A program made the translations under genes and the position numbers. This document shows positions 10,891 to 18,036 of a stretch of 64,000 nucleotides of DNA, in pieces. The notes beneath the pieces were generated by a model. It saw only the letters and a list, made by a program, of their open reading frames with translations, was not told the origin of the DNA and made no database searches. The DNA comes from Anaerolineae bacterium (lineage in GTDB: Bacteria > Chloroflexota > Anaerolineae > UBA4142 > SHND01): NCBI GenBank assembly GCA_021463195.1, contig JAJTXZ010000005.1:1-64000 (forward strand), written 5' to 3'. The stretch's first letter is position 1, and the number at the start of each line of letters is the position of its first letter.

Positions 10891-13800
10891 TCATACGCGC
10901 TTGATCGCGATTTTTAGCGGCGCGTCTTCAATTTGGATAGCGTTCACGACAAAAGCGGCGTCGCCCGCGCCCGCGCGCAAATCCGTCGTCAACGTTTCGC
11001 GCTGGATATATTCGCCAAACACGTTCAGCATCGTTTGTAGTTTCGCGCTGTCCGTTTCGTAACGCGTCATGATGCGGTCTTGAATGTCAAAGCCCGCGTC
11101 TTTACGCATCGTTTGCACGGCGCGCACAAATTCACGCGCGAGACCTTCTTGCACAAGTTCGGGCGTGAGCGCGGTGTCAATCGCGACCGTGATGCCTTCG
11201 TCGCTCGCGACGGCTAGACCTTCCGCCGCTTGGGTTTGCACGAGTAGTTCGTTGGGCGCAATGTCGAATGTTTCGCCTTCCACCTCAAGCGATACATTTT
11301 CACCCGCGCCGACGCGCCGCGCGATTTCCGACGCATTCTGCGCGTTCAGCGCCAGGCGCAGCGCGGGAAATTTTTTGCCGAATTTGGGTCCGAGCAATTT
11401 GTTATCCGGCAAAATTTTATATTTGACGATATCGCCTTCTTGCTGCGTCAGCACGAGCTCTTGCACGTTCAATTCGTCCTTGACGATTTCGACCAGTTCG
11501 TCGCTCAATGCCGTTTGATGCAAGCCCACAAACGCGAGCGCGCGGGCGAGCGGCTGACGCACTTTCAGATTGGAATTGCCGCGCGCGGACAAACCAAGGG
11601 ACGCGATGGTGCGCGCAAGTTTCATTTGCGAAAGTAACGCTTTGTTTTGGGTTGACGCGTCCGCTTGCGGATAATACGTCATGTGAACGGACTCGAACGC
11701 GTTGGCGTGCGCGTTGCGTACCAAGTTTTGGTACATGACTTCGGTGACGAATGGCGTAATCGGCGCGATGAGCCGTCCGAGTTTGACGAGAACGTGATAG
11801 AGCGTCGCATACGCAGAATTTTTGTCGGCGTCGAGTTGCCCGCGCCAAAAGCGGCGGCGCGAACGCCGCACGTACCAATTCGACAAATCGTCGAGAAACG
11901 CTTCCACCGCGTCGGTTGCCGTGAGCGAATCGGATTGTTCTAACGCCTCTGTCACAGCTGCCACGATTTGATTCAAGCGCGCGAGAATCCATTGGTCGAG
12001 AACATTTTCCGATTGGGGCGTCGCGCCTTCGGGAAACTTGGGATCGAAATTGTCTTGCGACGGTTGCCAATCGTCGAGCAGCGCATAGGAAACGAAAAAG
12101 TTGTACACATTCCACAAGGGAATGAGAAAACGTCTTCGCACTTTGTCCGCGCGATGATAGCCGAACAAGAGATTCGCTTCGGGGCGATGATTGGCGTAGA
12201 GCCAACGCATCACGTCAACGCCCATGATGTCGGCGGCTTGATTGAATTCAATCATGTTGCCCGAACTTTTGTGCATGGGCTTGCCGTCTTCGGCGAGCAA
12301 GGTCGCGTAGCCAAAATTCTCCAAGAACGGCGGCGAGTTATCAATCACTGTCGCCATTGCGAGCAATGAATAGAACCAGTTGCGAAATTGTCCGGGAAAC
12401 GATTCGCTAATCCAATCGGCGGGATACCATTTGCGCCAGTATTCGCGGTTGGCGCGATATTGCAGCGTGCTGAAAGGAACGATGCCCGCGTCGAGCCACG
12501 GATTGCCCACTTCGTCCACGCGCGTCATTTTGCCGCCGCACGCGTCGCATTTCAATTTCACCGCGTCAATGTACGGACGATGCGGCGTGTGCCCTTGAAA
12601 TGTTTCCCAACCTTCCACCGCGAGGTCCTTTAATTCTTTTTCATCACCCACCACTTTATAGGCGTGACAATCATCGCACAGCCAGATTGGCAGCGCGAGA
12701 CCGTAATAGCGTTTTTTGGAAATCATCCAATCGTGCATGTTCTTGAGCCAATCGAGTTCGCGGTCGAGTCCGAATGATGGAATCCATTTGATTTGTTCCG
12801 TTACCTCCATCATTTTGCCGCGCAGCTCTTCCATGCTGATAAACCATTCGTCCACGAGACGATAGACGAGCGGCGTTTTGCAGCGCCAACAAATCGGGTA
12901 ACGATGCGGATACGCTTCGACGCGATACAATAAATTTTTCGCGCGCAAATTTTCTAAAATCGCGTCGGCGACGGAATCCTGCACAACACCATTTGGGAAA
13001 TCGGTGAACGGCAGCGTTGTCACTTGTTTACCGCTCAACCAATCGAAACCATCAACGAAAACGCCTTCATCGTCCAACGGCGCGACGAGCGGCAAATGCA
13101 GTTGTCTGCCCAACTTGTAATCTTCTGCGCCGCAACCGGGCGCAATATGCACAATGCCTGTGCCTTCGGCTTCGCTCACCTCATCCCAAAGAATGACGCG
13201 GTGCGCGTCCTTGGCAGAAACATTTACATCTCGCACAAGTTCGCGCAGTTCGGTGTTGCCGCCGATTTCGTTTTCCGCAGGCAATTCATCAAAGGGTCCG
13301 TCATACGTCCACCCTTCCATCTCCGCGCCCTTGAACTCGCGCACCACCTCATATTTTCCTTGAAGCATGTGCGTCGTGCCTTTGCTCAAGAAAAATGTTT
13401 CGTCGCCTTGTTTCACTTGAACATACGTGAGTTCGGGACCAACTGCCGCCGCGACGTTGCTTGTCAATGTCCACGGCGTCGTTGTCCAAACGAGCAATGA
13501 TTCTTTGTCGCGTCCGCGTAACGGAAATTTCAACGTGACACCTTGATGCGAGAGTTCCGCGTAACCGTCGGTGACGATTTCGTGTTGGCTGATGCCGGTC
13601 GCGCAGCGCGGGCACCACGGCATCACATCCGCGCCGCGATAGAGCCAATCGTTCTCCCAACATTTTTTGAGGAACGTCCAAATCATGTAATTGTTTTCGT
13701 TCGAGAACGTGAAATAGCTGCCGCCGAGTTCGGGCAAGCCAAGTCGTCCGACGATTTGTTCAACAGTATCGGTGACGGGTCCCTCGGGTCCTTGAACCGT

Positions 13801-14298
13801 AATCACCTCTTGCGAATTTGTCACGAGTTTGTCTGCGAGCGCGTTCAACTCGCCCGAATCGTTCCAGTCCATCCAATAACCAAGCCGAATGGATTGGTCA
13901 GTCTGGACACCCGCGTAGCGCAGCACGCGCTCTTTGCACTTGCTCACAAATTCCGCGAGCCCGAATGCTTCGATGTCTTTTTTGGATTTGAAACCGAGCG
14001 CTTTTTCAACTTCGACCTCAACCCAAAGTCCCTGACAATCAAAGCCGTTTTGATAGCGCAATTCGCGCCCGCGCATCGTCCAAAAGCGGCTGTACAAATC
14101 TTTGTACGAGCGTCCCCAGCCGTGATGCGCGCCCATCGGATTGTTCGCGGTGATGGGTCCGTCAATAAACGACCATTTTTCTTCGCCCTTGTGTAACGTA
14201 CGCGTTTGTTCAAACGCTTGCGACTCGCGCCAAAATTCGAGAATCGCGCGCTCTTGCGCGGAAAAATCTACTTGGGCTTTGACTTCTTGAAAAGGCAT
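10891..14298 (-). CDS. ileS: Isoleucyl-tRNA synthetase
   Basis: 1,135 residues, a class I synthetase that charges tRNA-Ile in the cytoplasm. The HIGH-equivalent is MGAHHG in the segment GPITANNPMGAHHGWGR. The KMSKS-equivalent is MHKSSGN within GKPMHKSSGNMI. The long CP1 editing insert (about residues 200-440) and C-terminal anticodon-binding domain with an extended tail match the IleRS2-like subclass, which tends to resist mupirocin; resistance itself is inference. The start is supported by GAGGTGAC just upstream. It lies 35 bases after the Nudix gene on the same strand, so the two are probably cotranscribed. No T-box leader precedes it, unlike the AlaX gene nearby. Confidence 0.95.
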   Translation of the reverse strand: MPFQEVKAQVDFSAQERAILEFWRESQAFEQTRTLHKGEEKWSFIDGPITANNPMGAHHGWGRSYKDLYSRFWTMRGRELRYQNGFDCQGLWVEVEVEKALGFKSKKDIEAFGLAEFVSKCKERVLRYAGVQTDQSIRLGYWMDWNDSGELNALADKLVTNSQEVITVQGPEGPVTDTVEQIVGRLGLPELGGSYFTFSNENNYMIWTFLKKCWENDWLYRGADVMPWCPRCATGISQHEIVTDGYAELSHQGVTLKFPLRGRDKESLLVWTTTPWTLTSNVAAAVGPELTYVQVKQGDETFFLSKGTTHMLQGKYEVVREFKGAEMEGWTYDGPFDELPAENEIGGNTELRELVRDVNVSAKDAHRVILWDEVSEAEGTGIVHIAPGCGAEDYKLGRQLHLPLVAPLDDEGVFVDGFDWLSGKQVTTLPFTDFPNGVVQDSVADAILENLRAKNLLYRVEAYPHRYPICWRCKTPLVYRLVDEWFISMEELRGKMMEVTEQIKWIPSFGLDRELDWLKNMHDWMISKKRYYGLALPIWLCDDCHAYKVVGDEKELKDLAVEGWETFQGHTPHRPYIDAVKLKCDACGGKMTRVDEVGNPWLDAGIVPFSTLQYRANREYWRKWYPADWISESFPGQFRNWFYSLLAMATVIDNSPPFLENFGYATLLAEDGKPMHKSSGNMIEFNQAADIMGVDVMRWLYANHRPEANLLFGYHRADKVRRRFLIPLWNVYNFFVSYALLDDWQPSQDNFDPKFPEGATPQSENVLDQWILARLNQIVAAVTEALEQSDSLTATDAVEAFLDDLSNWYVRRSRRRFWRGQLDADKNSAYATLYHVLVKLGRLIAPITPFVTEVMYQNLVRNAHANAFESVHMTYYPQADASTQNKALLSQMKLARTIASLGLSARGNSNLKVRQPLARALAFVGLHQTALSDELVEIVKDELNVQELVLTQQEGDIVKYKILPDNKLLGPKFGKKFPALRLALNAQNASEIARRVGAGENVSLEVEGETFDIAPNELLVQTQAAEGLAVASDEGITVAIDTALTPELVQEGLAREFVRAVQTMRKDAGFDIQDRIMTRYETDSAKLQTMLNVFGEYIQRETLTTDLRAGAGDAAFVVNAIQIEDAPLKIAIKRV

Positions 14299-14333
14299 AT
14301 GTCACCTCGACGTTGCAGCTTGCGAATTGTCTT

Positions 14334-14831
14334 TTAGATGTCGCTCGATTTTTTCAGATCTTGCATCACGCGCAGTTGATGCTCAAAGGCAAACTCGTTT
14401 GGCAAATCATCCAGCGCGCGCCATTCCAACGCGGCGACATCATCCATCGCGCGCAATGCGCCGCCAATCGCTTCGGCAAGATAATACATGATTACCATTG
14501 GCGCGCCGTCCGCGCCATACGAATCCATATAGATTCCCAATAAACCTGTCAAACGAACCGTCAAGCCCGTTTCTTCTAAAAGTTCGCGGCGCGCGCCATC
14601 CTCCGGATGTTCCCCCGCTTCGAGAAAGCCGCCCGGAACATCCCAAAATCCTTGGCGCGGTTCGACCGCGCGCCGCGCGAGCAGCACGCGTCCGTTTTGC
14701 ATGACCAGCGCGCACGCGCACGGTTTAGAATTGTGATAATGCCAAGTGTGACAACGCGCGCAGCGCTGCGGCGCAAACGCGACGCCCTGCTCCAGTCGCG
14801 CGCCGCAATCGGCGCAAAAAAAATATTGCAT
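14334..14831 (-). CDS. Nudix hydrolase with N-terminal zinc ribbon
   Basis: 165 residues. Cys6, Cys9, Cys24 and Cys27 form a zinc ribbon like that of NADH pyrophosphatase (NudC). The Nudix box G-x5-E-x7-RELLEETGL follows, so a magnesium-dependent pyrophosphatase acting on a nucleoside diphosphate derivative is likely. The substrate is unknown. The NudC-specific SQPWPFPxS motif is not seen. ATG 14831 is chosen; an in-frame TTG at 14855 would add eight residues without a better ribosome site. It is the upstream partner of ileS. Divergent from the diguanylate cyclase gene, with about 110 bases between them. Confidence 0.85.
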   Translation of the reverse strand: MQYFFCADCGARLEQGVAFAPQRCARCHTWHYHNSKPCACALVMQNGRVLLARRAVEPRQGFWDVPGGFLEAGEHPEDGARRELLEETGLTVRLTGLLGIYMDSYGADGAPMVIMYYLAEAIGGALRAMDDVAALEWRALDDLPNEFAFEHQLRVMQDLKKSSDI

Positions 14832-14944
14832 TTTTGTATCGCTCAAATCGTTCAAATTGGTTTATAATCTATTCATCAAGCATGTTCGATGCTTTGTCTA
14901 AATATTCTAGCTTGTAGGCGCGATAATTTTTTGGAGCAAGCGCA

Positions 14945-16027
14945 ATGCTAAAACGCCAATCTAGCTCGTTTGTCGAGAGCATGGTCTCTTGGTTTCAACT
15001 TACCAACTCGGTCCCACGACCCAAACGCCACATTTTTATCGCGATGATGTCGTTGGGCGCGGGATTTTTATTTCTCAACCTTGTTTTTGCCGCGACATTC
15101 GCAATGGACCGCGTAGACTTTGCCCTCAACGCGGTCATGCTGCTAACGCTTGTCACAGCCGCCATTCTCTTGTGGCGTCATGTTCAGCATCAAGAACTCT
15201 TGTTACTGTGCTTGTATCTCTTTGCCGCGCTGTATATCGTCGCCTTGATGACCAATTACACTCTCCGCATGTTGCCGCAGCGTCAAGAGCCAAGTCTGCT
15301 AGAGTGCGTGGCGCCATGGATGCTCTGGCTCGTCGTTTTGGATGTTGGATGCTTTTTCACGTTTCGCGCGCTGACCGCTTTACGCCTAGCTCTCATTATG
15401 GCGGGCATCGCTGTTTTTGGCGCATTCAGTATCGTATGGCACAGTCTCCCCATCGAAATGTCTGCCGCGCACGATATTTTAGCGCTGAGTTTAGCGAACG
15501 GGCTGGTTGTGCTATTTGTTTATCAAATGGCGCGCGCGCAAGAACACAGTTCGCAGACCGATTTCTTGACCGGCTTGCCCAATCGTATGCGCGGTTATAG
15601 CATATTATCCGCCGAATTAGAACGCGCCGAACGTTATCAAAAAATCTTTAGCGTCATCCTTTTCGATTTGGACAATTTCAAGCAGGTCAATGACCGTTTT
15701 GGGCATCCCGCCGGCGACGCAATCTTGCGCGACTTTACAAATTTTACGCAGCAACATATTCGCCGTTCCGACCTGTTCGCGCGTTGGGGCGGCGAAGAAT
15801 TTATTCTCATCATGCCCGAAAGCGATTTAGCCTCGGGCCGTCTAAAAGCCGATTATTTGCGCCAACAAATCAAAAATCGCGCGTTTCATCAAGGCATCCG
15901 CATCACATCAAGTTTTGGCGTAACCGCGTATTATCCGCGTGACACAACCCAGTCACTCTTGGAACGCGCCGATGCCGCGCTCTATCGCGCCAAAGCCAAC
16001 GGACGAAATTGTGTCGAGGTGGAATGA
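14945..16027 (+). CDS. Membrane-bound diguanylate cyclase (GGDEF)
   Basis: 360 residues. The N-terminal half holds about six hydrophobic helices (roughly residues 30-195) with no recognised sensor family. The C-terminal GGDEF domain has the active-site signature GGEEF near residue 281, an accepted active variant. Five residues before it is RRSD, matching the RxxD product-inhibition site. It should make cyclic di-GMP from two GTP at the membrane, with feedback inhibition. The start is backed by GGAGC eight bases before ATG. A TATAAT at 14863-14868 could be its -10 box, although no convincing -35 was seen. No phosphodiesterase or PilZ gene is in the window. Confidence 0.92.
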   Translation: MLKRQSSSFVESMVSWFQLTNSVPRPKRHIFIAMMSLGAGFLFLNLVFAATFAMDRVDFALNAVMLLTLVTAAILLWRHVQHQELLLLCLYLFAALYIVALMTNYTLRMLPQRQEPSLLECVAPWMLWLVVLDVGCFFTFRALTALRLALIMAGIAVFGAFSIVWHSLPIEMSAAHDILALSLANGLVVLFVYQMARAQEHSSQTDFLTGLPNRMRGYSILSAELERAERYQKIFSVILFDLDNFKQVNDRFGHPAGDAILRDFTNFTQQHIRRSDLFARWGGEEFILIMPESDLASGRLKADYLRQQIKNRAFHQGIRITSSFGVTAYYPRDTTQSLLERADAALYRAKANGRNCVEVE

Positions 16028-16029
16028 GA

Positions 16030-16130
16030 AAGTGGAGATTGGAGATTGAAGATTGGGGATTGAAAATATTCAGTCTGAATTTCTCGTCTCACTTCTCCCG
16101 TCTCTAGTCTCCAATCTCTATCCTCAACCG
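16030..16130. repeat. Degenerate purine/pyrimidine heptamer repeats
   Basis: The gap after the diguanylate cyclase gene holds several GGAGATT-like heptamers. Complementary CTCCAATCTC blocks at about 16107-16121 make a loose inverted repeat. The second half overlaps the end of the alaX gene. Confidence 0.45.
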
Positions 16131-16814
16131 CTTGTTAATTTTCCCTTTGCTCTCGTGTCCCACCACACGAATCGTCCCCACTTCACGCGTGTTCGCCACA
16201 TGCGTTCCGCCATCCGCTTGCAAATCCAAGCCAACAATCTCCACCACGCGCACTTGTTCGATGCCTGCCGGCAATAAATTTATTTTCGTCCGAATCAAAT
16301 CGGGAATTTCAAACGCTTTGGCGCGCGGCAAAATTTTCACGCGCACATCGCGCGCGGCGGCGACTTCGGCATTGATGCGCTCTTCAACCTCGTGCGCGAA
16401 TTCAGCGCTCATGCGGTCAAACTCAAAATCCATGCGCGCCGCCAACGGCTCCATATCGCCGCCCGTCACCGACGCGCCATAATCGCGAAAGATGACGCCG
16501 CACAAAATATGCAGCGCCGTATGCGTACGCATCAACTTGTAACGGCGGACCCAATCCACCGCGCCGCGCAACGTGTCGCCCGCTTCCAACCCCGCGCTGT
16601 CGAGTTGATGCCACACTTGGTCGCCTTGCTTTTTGGAATCCAGCACGCGGAACGTCACGCCATTCCCCATCAGAATTCCAAAATCGCTCGGCTGTCCGCC
16701 GCTGCGCGCATACAACGCGGTGCGGTCCAACGCGACGCGTTCCGCGTCAACCGCAGCGACGGTCGCATCAAATTCTCGCAAATACGCGTCAGAATGATAA
16801 AGCAGCTCGGTCAT
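16104..16814 (-). CDS. alaX: Free-standing alanyl-tRNA editing protein (AlaX)
   Basis: 236 residues, homologous to the AlaRS editing domain plus its preceding beta-barrel (AlaX-M type). Such proteins hydrolyse mischarged Ser- or Gly-tRNA-Ala in trans. His98 and His102 form the HxxxH zinc motif. The second metal motif reads DGGTH, with Asp201 where AlaRS has Cys, and His205. ATG 16814 has AAGGA nine bases upstream. The gene is preceded by a complete T-box leader with its own promoter and terminator, so synthesis should rise when a cognate tRNA is uncharged. That is unusual for an editing enzyme, since T-boxes normally precede synthetases, biosynthesis or transport genes. Confidence 0.9.
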   Translation of the reverse strand: MTELLYHSDAYLREFDATVAAVDAERVALDRTALYARSGGQPSDFGILMGNGVTFRVLDSKKQGDQVWHQLDSAGLEAGDTLRGAVDWVRRYKLMRTHTALHILCGVIFRDYGASVTGGDMEPLAARMDFEFDRMSAEFAHEVEERINAEVAAARDVRVKILPRAKAFEIPDLIRTKINLLPAGIEQVRVVEIVGLDLQADGGTHVANTREVGTIRVVGHESKGKINKRLRIEIGD

Positions 16815-16833
16815 GGTAGAACGTCCTTGAAAC

Positions 16834-17138
16834 AAAAACCTCTCGCCCGAAATCGGGACGAGAGGTCATTCAGAAAAAACTTGCGAATTCTCCCGCGGTA
16901 CCACCCGCGTTGATGATGTTACAAAACATCACCCACTTTATCGGATACAAACATATCCGCGTTCCGTTAACGGGGAACGATGCCGTTTCAACCTACTTGC
17001 GCGTGTGCGCTTTCAATGAAAAGCTCGGGAAGGATTTTCGGCGCTCCTCTGTTGCGCGGCTTGCACCGATTGACGCCCTGGCGTCACCGCGCTCGCTAAA
17101 ACAATCCAGAACGCTTACTCGTTTCCGTCATCGCCAAT
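16834..17138 (-). promoter_or_regulatory. T-box riboswitch leader of alaX
   Basis: The minus strand holds the T-box signature GGGTGGTACCGCG at 16894-16906. It is followed by the terminator CCTCTCG...CGAGAGG-TTTTTG (16834-16865). Upstream, Stem I hallmarks are present: GATGACGG...CGAGTA near the base, AGCGAGC and GGTGCAAGCC in the distal part. The specifier codon could not be fixed. Hand-folding puts the specifier loop around GCGCCGAAAATCC (about 17044-17032), and no Ala codon sits in an obvious position there. Confidence 0.9.
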
Positions 17139-17144
17139 TTCACA

Positions 17145-17173
17145 AGTATATGTAGCACATGAACGCATGTCAA
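17145..17173 (-). promoter_or_regulatory. Promoter of T-box/alaX transcript
   Basis: On the minus strand, TTGACA (17168-17173), exactly 17 bases and TATACT (17145-17150). The start should be near 17138, which matches the beginning of the T-box leader. The 170 bases further upstream, to the aat stop, contain a perfect 20-bp palindrome at 17280-17299 and nothing coding. Confidence 0.8.
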
Positions 17174-17346
17174 ATCGCGCGCACGCAAGGAGTGTAGTTC
17201 ACATTGGGGGTCAGTTTGTAGGCGAATCCAATTCGCGCCAACAAATACACGAAACGCTCCTGCGGACGTTCCCGCGATTGCGCCTGCGCGCGCAGGCGCC
17301 AAAAGCCGTGCCTATGTATTCGGCAATGGCGCGATGGGACACTCGC

Positions 17347-18036
17347 TTATTCACTACGCGACAATACATTCCAGCTCGTTTGCGTTTGGACCGCGCGCTC
17401 TAGCCGATTCAAATACTCCAAACGAGAAATTTCATGCGCGCCCAATGAGGCGGTGTGCGGCGTCAAGATTTGAATATCGAGCAGTTGAAAATTATTCGCG
17501 CGTAACGTTTCTACCAAAACGAACAGCGCGACTTTGGACGCGTCTGTTGCGGTGTGAAACATTGACTCGGCGGAAAAAAGACCATTGACCGCCACGCCAA
17601 AAATTCCGCCGACTAGTTTTTCATTCAACCAACATTCAACGCTGTGCGCGTGTCCCAATTCATGCAATCCCGCGAACGCGCGCCGAAACGGGCGCGAAAT
17701 CCAAACCCCATCGCCCGCATGACGCGGCTGCGCGCAGCCGGCAACCACCGCGCTAAAAGCACAGTCAATTTTTATTTCAAAAGGACGCGTTTTGATTTTG
17801 CGCGCGAGCCGTTTTGATATACGCAGTTTATCGAGCGGAATAATCGCGCGCGGATCGGGCGACCACCACGTTACGGGATTCGCCGACCACGCGAACAAAC
17901 CTTTGCGGTAACCTGTCAACATCAATGTCGGAGAGAGTTCCGAACCGATTGCAACGGGTTCGTCCGTTGGGCCAAAACGCGGGTTTGGAAGTTCGTCGCC
18001 GACTTCGAGAATCGTGATACCGCGATGATAACGCAT
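17347..18036 (-). CDS. aat: Leucyl/phenylalanyl-tRNA--protein transferase
   Basis: 229 residues. The enzyme adds Leu or Phe from tRNA to proteins with N-terminal Lys or Arg, marking them for ClpS/ClpAP. Family blocks are clear: YRKGLFAWSA, WWSPDPRAIIP, ELGHAHSVECW, LVGGIFGVAVNGLFSAESMF, SKVAL and TPHTASLGA. ATG 18036 is chosen because family homology begins there. The open frame runs another 29 codons upstream, but through a miniature mobile element (18052-18146). Because that element lies 16 bases before the ATG, the original promoter or ribosome site of aat has probably been displaced. No good Shine-Dalgarno is visible. Confidence 0.9.
   Translation of the reverse strand: MRYHRGITILEVGDELPNPRFGPTDEPVAIGSELSPTLMLTGYRKGLFAWSANPVTWWSPDPRAIIPLDKLRISKRLARKIKTRPFEIKIDCAFSAVVAGCAQPRHAGDGVWISRPFRRAFAGLHELGHAHSVECWLNEKLVGGIFGVAVNGLFSAESMFHTATDASKVALFVLVETLRANNFQLLDIQILTPHTASLGAHEISRLEYLNRLERAVQTQTSWNVLSRSE

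Follow-up and report, generated by a model that had tools for sequence, protein, structure and literature searches.

It has been reported by Wels et al. (2008; PMC2494555, available text) that an ile tRNA ligase T-box occurs in Chloroflexi. The substrates of the AlaX family are given as Ser/Gly-tRNA-Ala in the available text of PMC11295145, where AlaXp-M and AlaXp-L are stated to recognise the G3:U70 pair. Noncontiguous operons, in which operon genes flank a gene of the opposite strand, are described for S. aureus with menE-menC-MW1733-ytkD-MW1731 (PMC7154746, available text). The locus presented here lies in an Anaerolineae bacterium, in the window, by which the whole analysed stretch of 64,000 nucleotides is meant, and it touches on all three systems. 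With ileS T-box leaders it shares the leader architecture, an isoleucine specifier and an ileS gene downstream, whereas it differs from them by an alaX gene placed in first position ahead of ileS and, within the genus, by a GGDEF gene lying in antisense between the two. As in the S. aureus case, operon genes flank an opposite-strand gene; a co-transcribed operon of this kind would here have a T-box at its head. Judged from its sequence, the leader is very probably a tRNA-Ile-sensing, transcription-terminating T-box belonging to the ileS of the class, in an operon that begins with alaX. The regulatory kind, an ileS T-box, is thus already known, while alaX as a T-box target was not found in the literature searched, although TBDB (PMC7778990, available text) may list such cases. 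The available text of PMC7337962 has no bearing on an alaX gene preceded by a T-box, both alaX and ileS are missing from the main text of a regulon survey that includes Chloroflexi genomes (PMC3766115), and alaX–ileS linkage is absent from the available texts of PMC4861432 and PMC11295145.

The near-consensus promoter, Stem I, antiterminator T-box and terminator described in the first-pass annotation are all present on the minus strand within 17173-16837 (Table 1), and its statement that the leader precedes a free-standing AlaX-type gene is borne out by position, as AAGGA at 16828-16824 and then the alaX ATG at 16814 follow downstream of the terminator. The covariance check with RF00230 that had been proposed was run, and the leader was matched over the full model (1-219) with an E of 8e-21 and its specifier was read as AUC; the match is far beyond chance. 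The Rfam gathering score for RF00230 is 93, and a default Rfam scan reports no T-box in the window because the score lies 0.5 bit under it. The gathering score is passed by homologous leaders (L126 with 107.8, L185 with 106.4 and L105 with 106.3 bits) and, among members of the genus, by L191 and L192 (96.8 and 94.0 bits).

Table 1. Features of the T-box–alaX–ileS locus, in positions of the window
Feature	Position	Strand	Basis and details
Promoter TTGACA-N17-TATACT, sigma70-type	17145..17173	-	consensus scan, 11/12 matches
RF00230 T-box leader, from Stem I through the antiterminator	16851..17140	-	covariance match, 92.5 bits
Specifier AUC (Ile), loop GAA-A-AUC-C	17033..17035	-	Rfam alignment and helix-based reader
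T-box sequence GGGUGGUACCGCG	16894..16906	-	Rfam alignment; bulge UGGU at 16903-16900
Intrinsic terminator, overlapping the 3' arm of the antiterminator	16837..16867	-	scan and fold
alaX, AlaX-M-like aminoacyl-tRNA editing protein, 236 aa	16104..16814	-	NF040865, PF07973 tRNA_SAD
GGDEF (diguanylate cyclase) gene, antisense, between alaX and Nudix-ileS	14945..16027	+	PF00990, E 5e-42
Nudix hydrolase gene, likely start ATG 14831	14334..14855	-	PF00293
ileS, isoleucyl-tRNA synthetase	10891..14298	-	TIGR00392, 688.8 bits, over cut-off

The promoter is the sole site at the 11/12 threshold within 14200-17500, yet the number of promoter-like sites at that threshold (one real site vs a mean of 2.2 in shuffles) is not above chance. 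A similar TTGACA / TATACT pair was seen by eye in the relatives L008, L009, L010 and L019. The terminator consists of 12 pairs followed by TTTGTTT, with a fold of about -22.7 kcal/mol, and is kept across the genus alignment of six sequences; terminator-like sites in the region number 3 vs 6.0 in shuffles. Since the scan numbers do not exceed those of the shuffles, both elements draw their support from position, fit and conservation. The 5' arm of the terminator contains CUCGUCCCG, a segment that is needed by the antiterminator as well, and through it the two structures are predicted to be mutually exclusive.

The first annotation had remarked that the specifier was not obviously an alanine codon and had left the sensed tRNA open. 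In the RF00230 alignment the specifier loop is followed at once by its closing helix UUCC and the codon is AUC, isoleucine, which is invariant in the genus alignment; the sensed tRNA is therefore taken to be tRNA-Ile. A helix-based reader, which locates the specifier by means of its closing helix and is blind to the codon, returned ATC in 70 of the 75 leaders of relatives with a standard motif. The other five (L113, L121, L122, L144 and L187, four of them misread and one without output) have ATC according to Rfam alignments or the sequence itself, L187 having been read through its duplicate record L044. When five further leaders found by Rfam are included, ATC stands in the specifier context in 80/80 leaders of relatives, counted with a pattern that is itself anchored on ATC. 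On a first set of loci the reader misread L054 (ATC by eye) and gave no output for L044, which was read by other means; the 24 T-box loci of this set overlap with the class sample and were not added to the counts.

The UGGU bulge is found in 73/75 of the loci with the standard motif and would be complementary to a tRNA ending in ACCA, and the tRNA-Ile(GAU) of the class relative G027 fits it with its discriminator A. This pairing was checked on G027 as a single relative, the own alaX of which (L084) is without a T-box. The 42 tRNA matches obtained for the window's assembly include neither tRNA-Ile(GAU) nor tRNA-Ala(TGC); as the two genes lie side by side in G027, an rRNA operon is likely missing from that assembly. 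Typed patterns for tRNA-Ile, applied to sets of 8 and 13 genomes, matched nothing and were evidently too strict, because G027, one of the 13, has the gene. When isoleucine is short, uncharged tRNA-Ile(GAU) would make two contacts with the leader, its anticodon pairing with AUC and its free 3' end with UGGU in the bulge; the antiterminator would then form and RNA polymerase would continue into alaX, whereas charged tRNA-Ile would be unable to pair so and the terminator would form.

It might be assumed instead that tRNA-Ala is the ligand of the T-box, by which AlaX would be coupled to alanine starvation or to a failure of AlaRS. Such a reading would agree with Ser/Gly-tRNA-Ala as the substrates of the AlaX family (PMC11295145, available text), and the UGGU bulge also fits any tRNA with discriminator A, but AUC is no alanine codon, it is kept in every one of the 80 leaders of relatives, and the T-box goes with ileS, as the comparison of loci given below indicates. 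An alanine-sensing T-box was rejected on the specifier and is regarded as extremely improbable.

RF00230 has seven matches in the window's genome at E up to 10, the window leader included. The six further ones lie upstream of pheS, trpE, leuS, an aspartokinase gene, valS and serS (L001, L003-L007) on contigs C2, C98, C79, C59 and C80 of this genome (G000), the one before serS (L007) being weak with 33.8 bits. Applied to these leaders, the reader returned the codon to be expected in five of the seven (TGG for trpE, CTC for leuS, ACC for aspartokinase, GTC for valS and ATC for alaX), misread the pheS leader (UUC by eye) and returned no output for the serS leader. The aspartokinase leader combines its ACC specifier with a UGGA bulge, and valS is located about 0.8 kb downstream of the GTC T-box.

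The AlaX protein was searched in 199 genomes of the class and matches were obtained in 116, some of them AlaRS-like. For the comparison 112 loci were used, comprising 110 from 109 class genomes (G113 twice) and two from a family search, the window itself not being counted; six AlaRS-like matches with long frames, scoring about 110-118 bits at 36-41% identity, a fragment from G108 and a second copy in G091 were left out, and L103 was excluded as containing ileS only. An ileS gene lies downstream of alaX on the same strand in 84/112 loci, with a median gap of 689 bases, and a T-box lies at most 1300 bases upstream of alaX in 80/112, of which 70 have ileS downstream on the same strand and 10 are on contigs that end before ileS. 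A T-box precedes alaX in 70 of the 79 ileS-linked loci with enough upstream DNA, in contrast to 0 of the 10 assessable loci that extend 4 kb or more beyond alaX without an ileS in that span (Fisher p 2e-8, a test that ignores kinship among loci). Rfam scans of the ten unlinked loci agree, one T-box (L081) being located more than 5 kb downstream of alaX. The contig ends before ileS could be assessed in the ten T-box loci mentioned and in seven loci without a T-box, and upstream DNA is too short in five loci of the linked group and in one of the unlinked group.

In G084 (L176) alaX has no T-box in front of it, and a T-box with the specifier AUC sits between alaX and ileS. From this arrangement together with the counts it follows that the switch goes with ileS, and a T-box beside an editing gene is explained because the ileS operon carries alaX in front. 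The link of quality control to starvation through a T-box of the editing enzyme, as first suggested, has to be modified accordingly: the T-box belongs with the synthetase gene, and a connection between quality control and isoleucine starvation may be a consequence of the arrangement, not its evident reason. L176 is one of nine linked loci that have no T-box upstream of alaX; in the eight others (L095, L096, L098, L099, L140, L149, L165 and L177) no T-box was found anywhere in the fetched stretch, and five of these have alaX–ileS gaps of 2.5-3.9 kb. A candidate second T-box before ileS in L132 was discarded, as the motif match falls within an ORF of 755 aa that separates alaX from ileS there, and Rfam gave it no support.

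Outside the genus, in L107, L108 and L114, a Nudix gene stands directly behind alaX on the operon strand. The ancestral operon was therefore probably T-box–alaX–(Nudix)–ileS, beginning with alaX, and the GGDEF gene would have come later; in this ancestral operon alaX would have been co-transcribed with ileS. The relevance of the comparison is that, throughout a sample of the class, a trans-editing gene is placed within an operon headed by a tRNA-Ile T-box.

The AlaX protein is alike to AlaX-M (NF040865; AlaXp-M structure 2E1B) over residues 2-234 and in HxxxH, which it has as HTALH, but it differs in its score of 280.1 bits, below the curated cut-off of 300 and hence AlaX-M-like, in the position of its gene behind a T-box, and in ADGGTH replacing ACGGTH, with Asp for the Cys of CxxxH. 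Asp occupies this position in 170 of the 183 sequences examined, some records counted twice, and so is a feature of the group and not a sign of decay. HxxxH and CxxxH are presumably the zinc-site motifs of AlaX-M. By analogy with its family, the protein would hydrolyse Ser/Gly-tRNA-Ala.

A functional reason for the placement would exist if AlaX acted on mischarged tRNA-Ile, as starvation would then raise IleRS together with its trans-editor. The frequency of the alaX–ileS linkage is in keeping with this, as is its occurrence with either of the two divergent groups of ileS (queries ile1 and ile2). However, the window IleRS keeps its own TTTPWTL and HIAPGCGAEDY, which we take to be the editing-domain motifs of IleRS, and no ileS is present within 4 kb of alaX in the 10 assessable loci and in one with little upstream DNA. 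Moreover, G3:U70, the pair recognised by AlaXp-M and -L (PMC11295145, available text), is seen by eye in the tRNA-Ala(TGC) of G027, whereas its tRNA-Ile(GAU) has G3:C70, which speaks against tRNA-Ile as an AlaX substrate. Editing of tRNA-Ile by AlaX is consequently held to be improbable, and the preferred explanation is still that alaX accompanies ileS under an isoleucine T-box. An exchange of IleRS types between lineages was also considered and dropped, both IleRS groups having their best matches in structures 8c8w and 1ile.

The family search yielded six genomes, all of one genus, and an opposite-strand GGDEF gene stands behind alaX in 6/6 (in G200 with 350 aligned residues and no stop by tblastn). 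In five of the six ileS follows downstream on the same contig, and in G155 the contig ends after Nudix and ileS is on another one. Because the GGDEF gene separates alaX from Nudix-ileS, alaX is the sole gene certain to lie directly behind the switch, and co-transcription of alaX with ileS is uncertain in this genus. The T-box before alaX is the sole RF00230 match on the window contig; Rfam scans of the five other genus loci gave a single T-box per locus, in front of alaX every time, and no T-box close to ileS; the ileS stretch of G155, with about 130 bases before the contig end, had none either.

The chances appear balanced that ileS has left the regulon, Nudix-ileS being transcribed from a promoter of its own beside the GGDEF gene and the T-box now controlling alaX alone. 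An opposite-strand gene normally terminates an operon, here one is found in all six genomes, and in the divergent gap ATTATA forms the longest run of invariant columns. On the GGDEF strand, however, this conserved block is TATAAT throughout the six genomes, none of which has a terminator-like site after alaX on the operon strand, and the best promoter-like site on the ileS strand is at chance in 5/6 (p 0.47-0.93; L192 has p 0.017). The promoter scan of the gap has little power, because the best site on the GGDEF strand is not above chance in any genome either (p 0.08-0.69).

Rather doubtful, in turn, is a noncontiguous operon in which the T-box transcript runs antisense through the GGDEF gene into Nudix-ileS, so that starvation would also oppose GGDEF expression. 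It is suggested by the sole T-box found in the genus being that before alaX, by the lack of an operon-strand terminator-like site between alaX and GGDEF in all six, by the closeness of the GGDEF ORF to the end of the alaX match (22 nt in L102 and 35 nt in L191, stop codons included), by the unclear ileS-strand promoter in 5/6, and by the precedent of S. aureus (PMC7154746, available text). Nevertheless, an antisense RNA of more than 1 kb would have to escape Rho, and consensus scans overlook unusual promoters and terminators, the promoter of GGDEF likewise not having been found. We lean towards an unrecognised ileS promoter in preference to read-through across GGDEF. That one Ile T-box raises both IleRS and the editing enzyme in this genus, by way of an alaX/antisense-GGDEF/Nudix-ileS transcript opposing the c-di-GMP synthase, seems unlikely. 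The finding is mostly accounted for by known biology, and the interest that remains is the antisense interruption in the genus, which offers a test case of whether a T-box still reaches its synthetase when an opposite-strand gene splits the operon.

Some minor observations concern the surroundings of these genes. In G200 (L192:3594-3746, operon orientation) Nudix aligns over 51 residues with ileS at once after it, as if truncated; the Nudix alignment in L101 covers 56 residues, and in L191 no Nudix match was found. RF01766 cspA thermoregulator matches lie near alaX in L085, L086 and L087, which are of one family and in which no T-box was found. Small opposite-strand ORFs are present between alaX and ileS in two order-level relatives (L104:2357-2698 and L105:2560-3036, operon orientation) and look toxin-like by eye (MazF/PemK-like, PIN-like). 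Just upstream of the window's T-box lies aat, for leucyl/phenylalanyl-tRNA protein transferase (PF03588, 17347-18036, minus strand), so that two tRNA-related genes flank the T-box, and in each of the other five loci of the genus aat matches likewise precede alaX.
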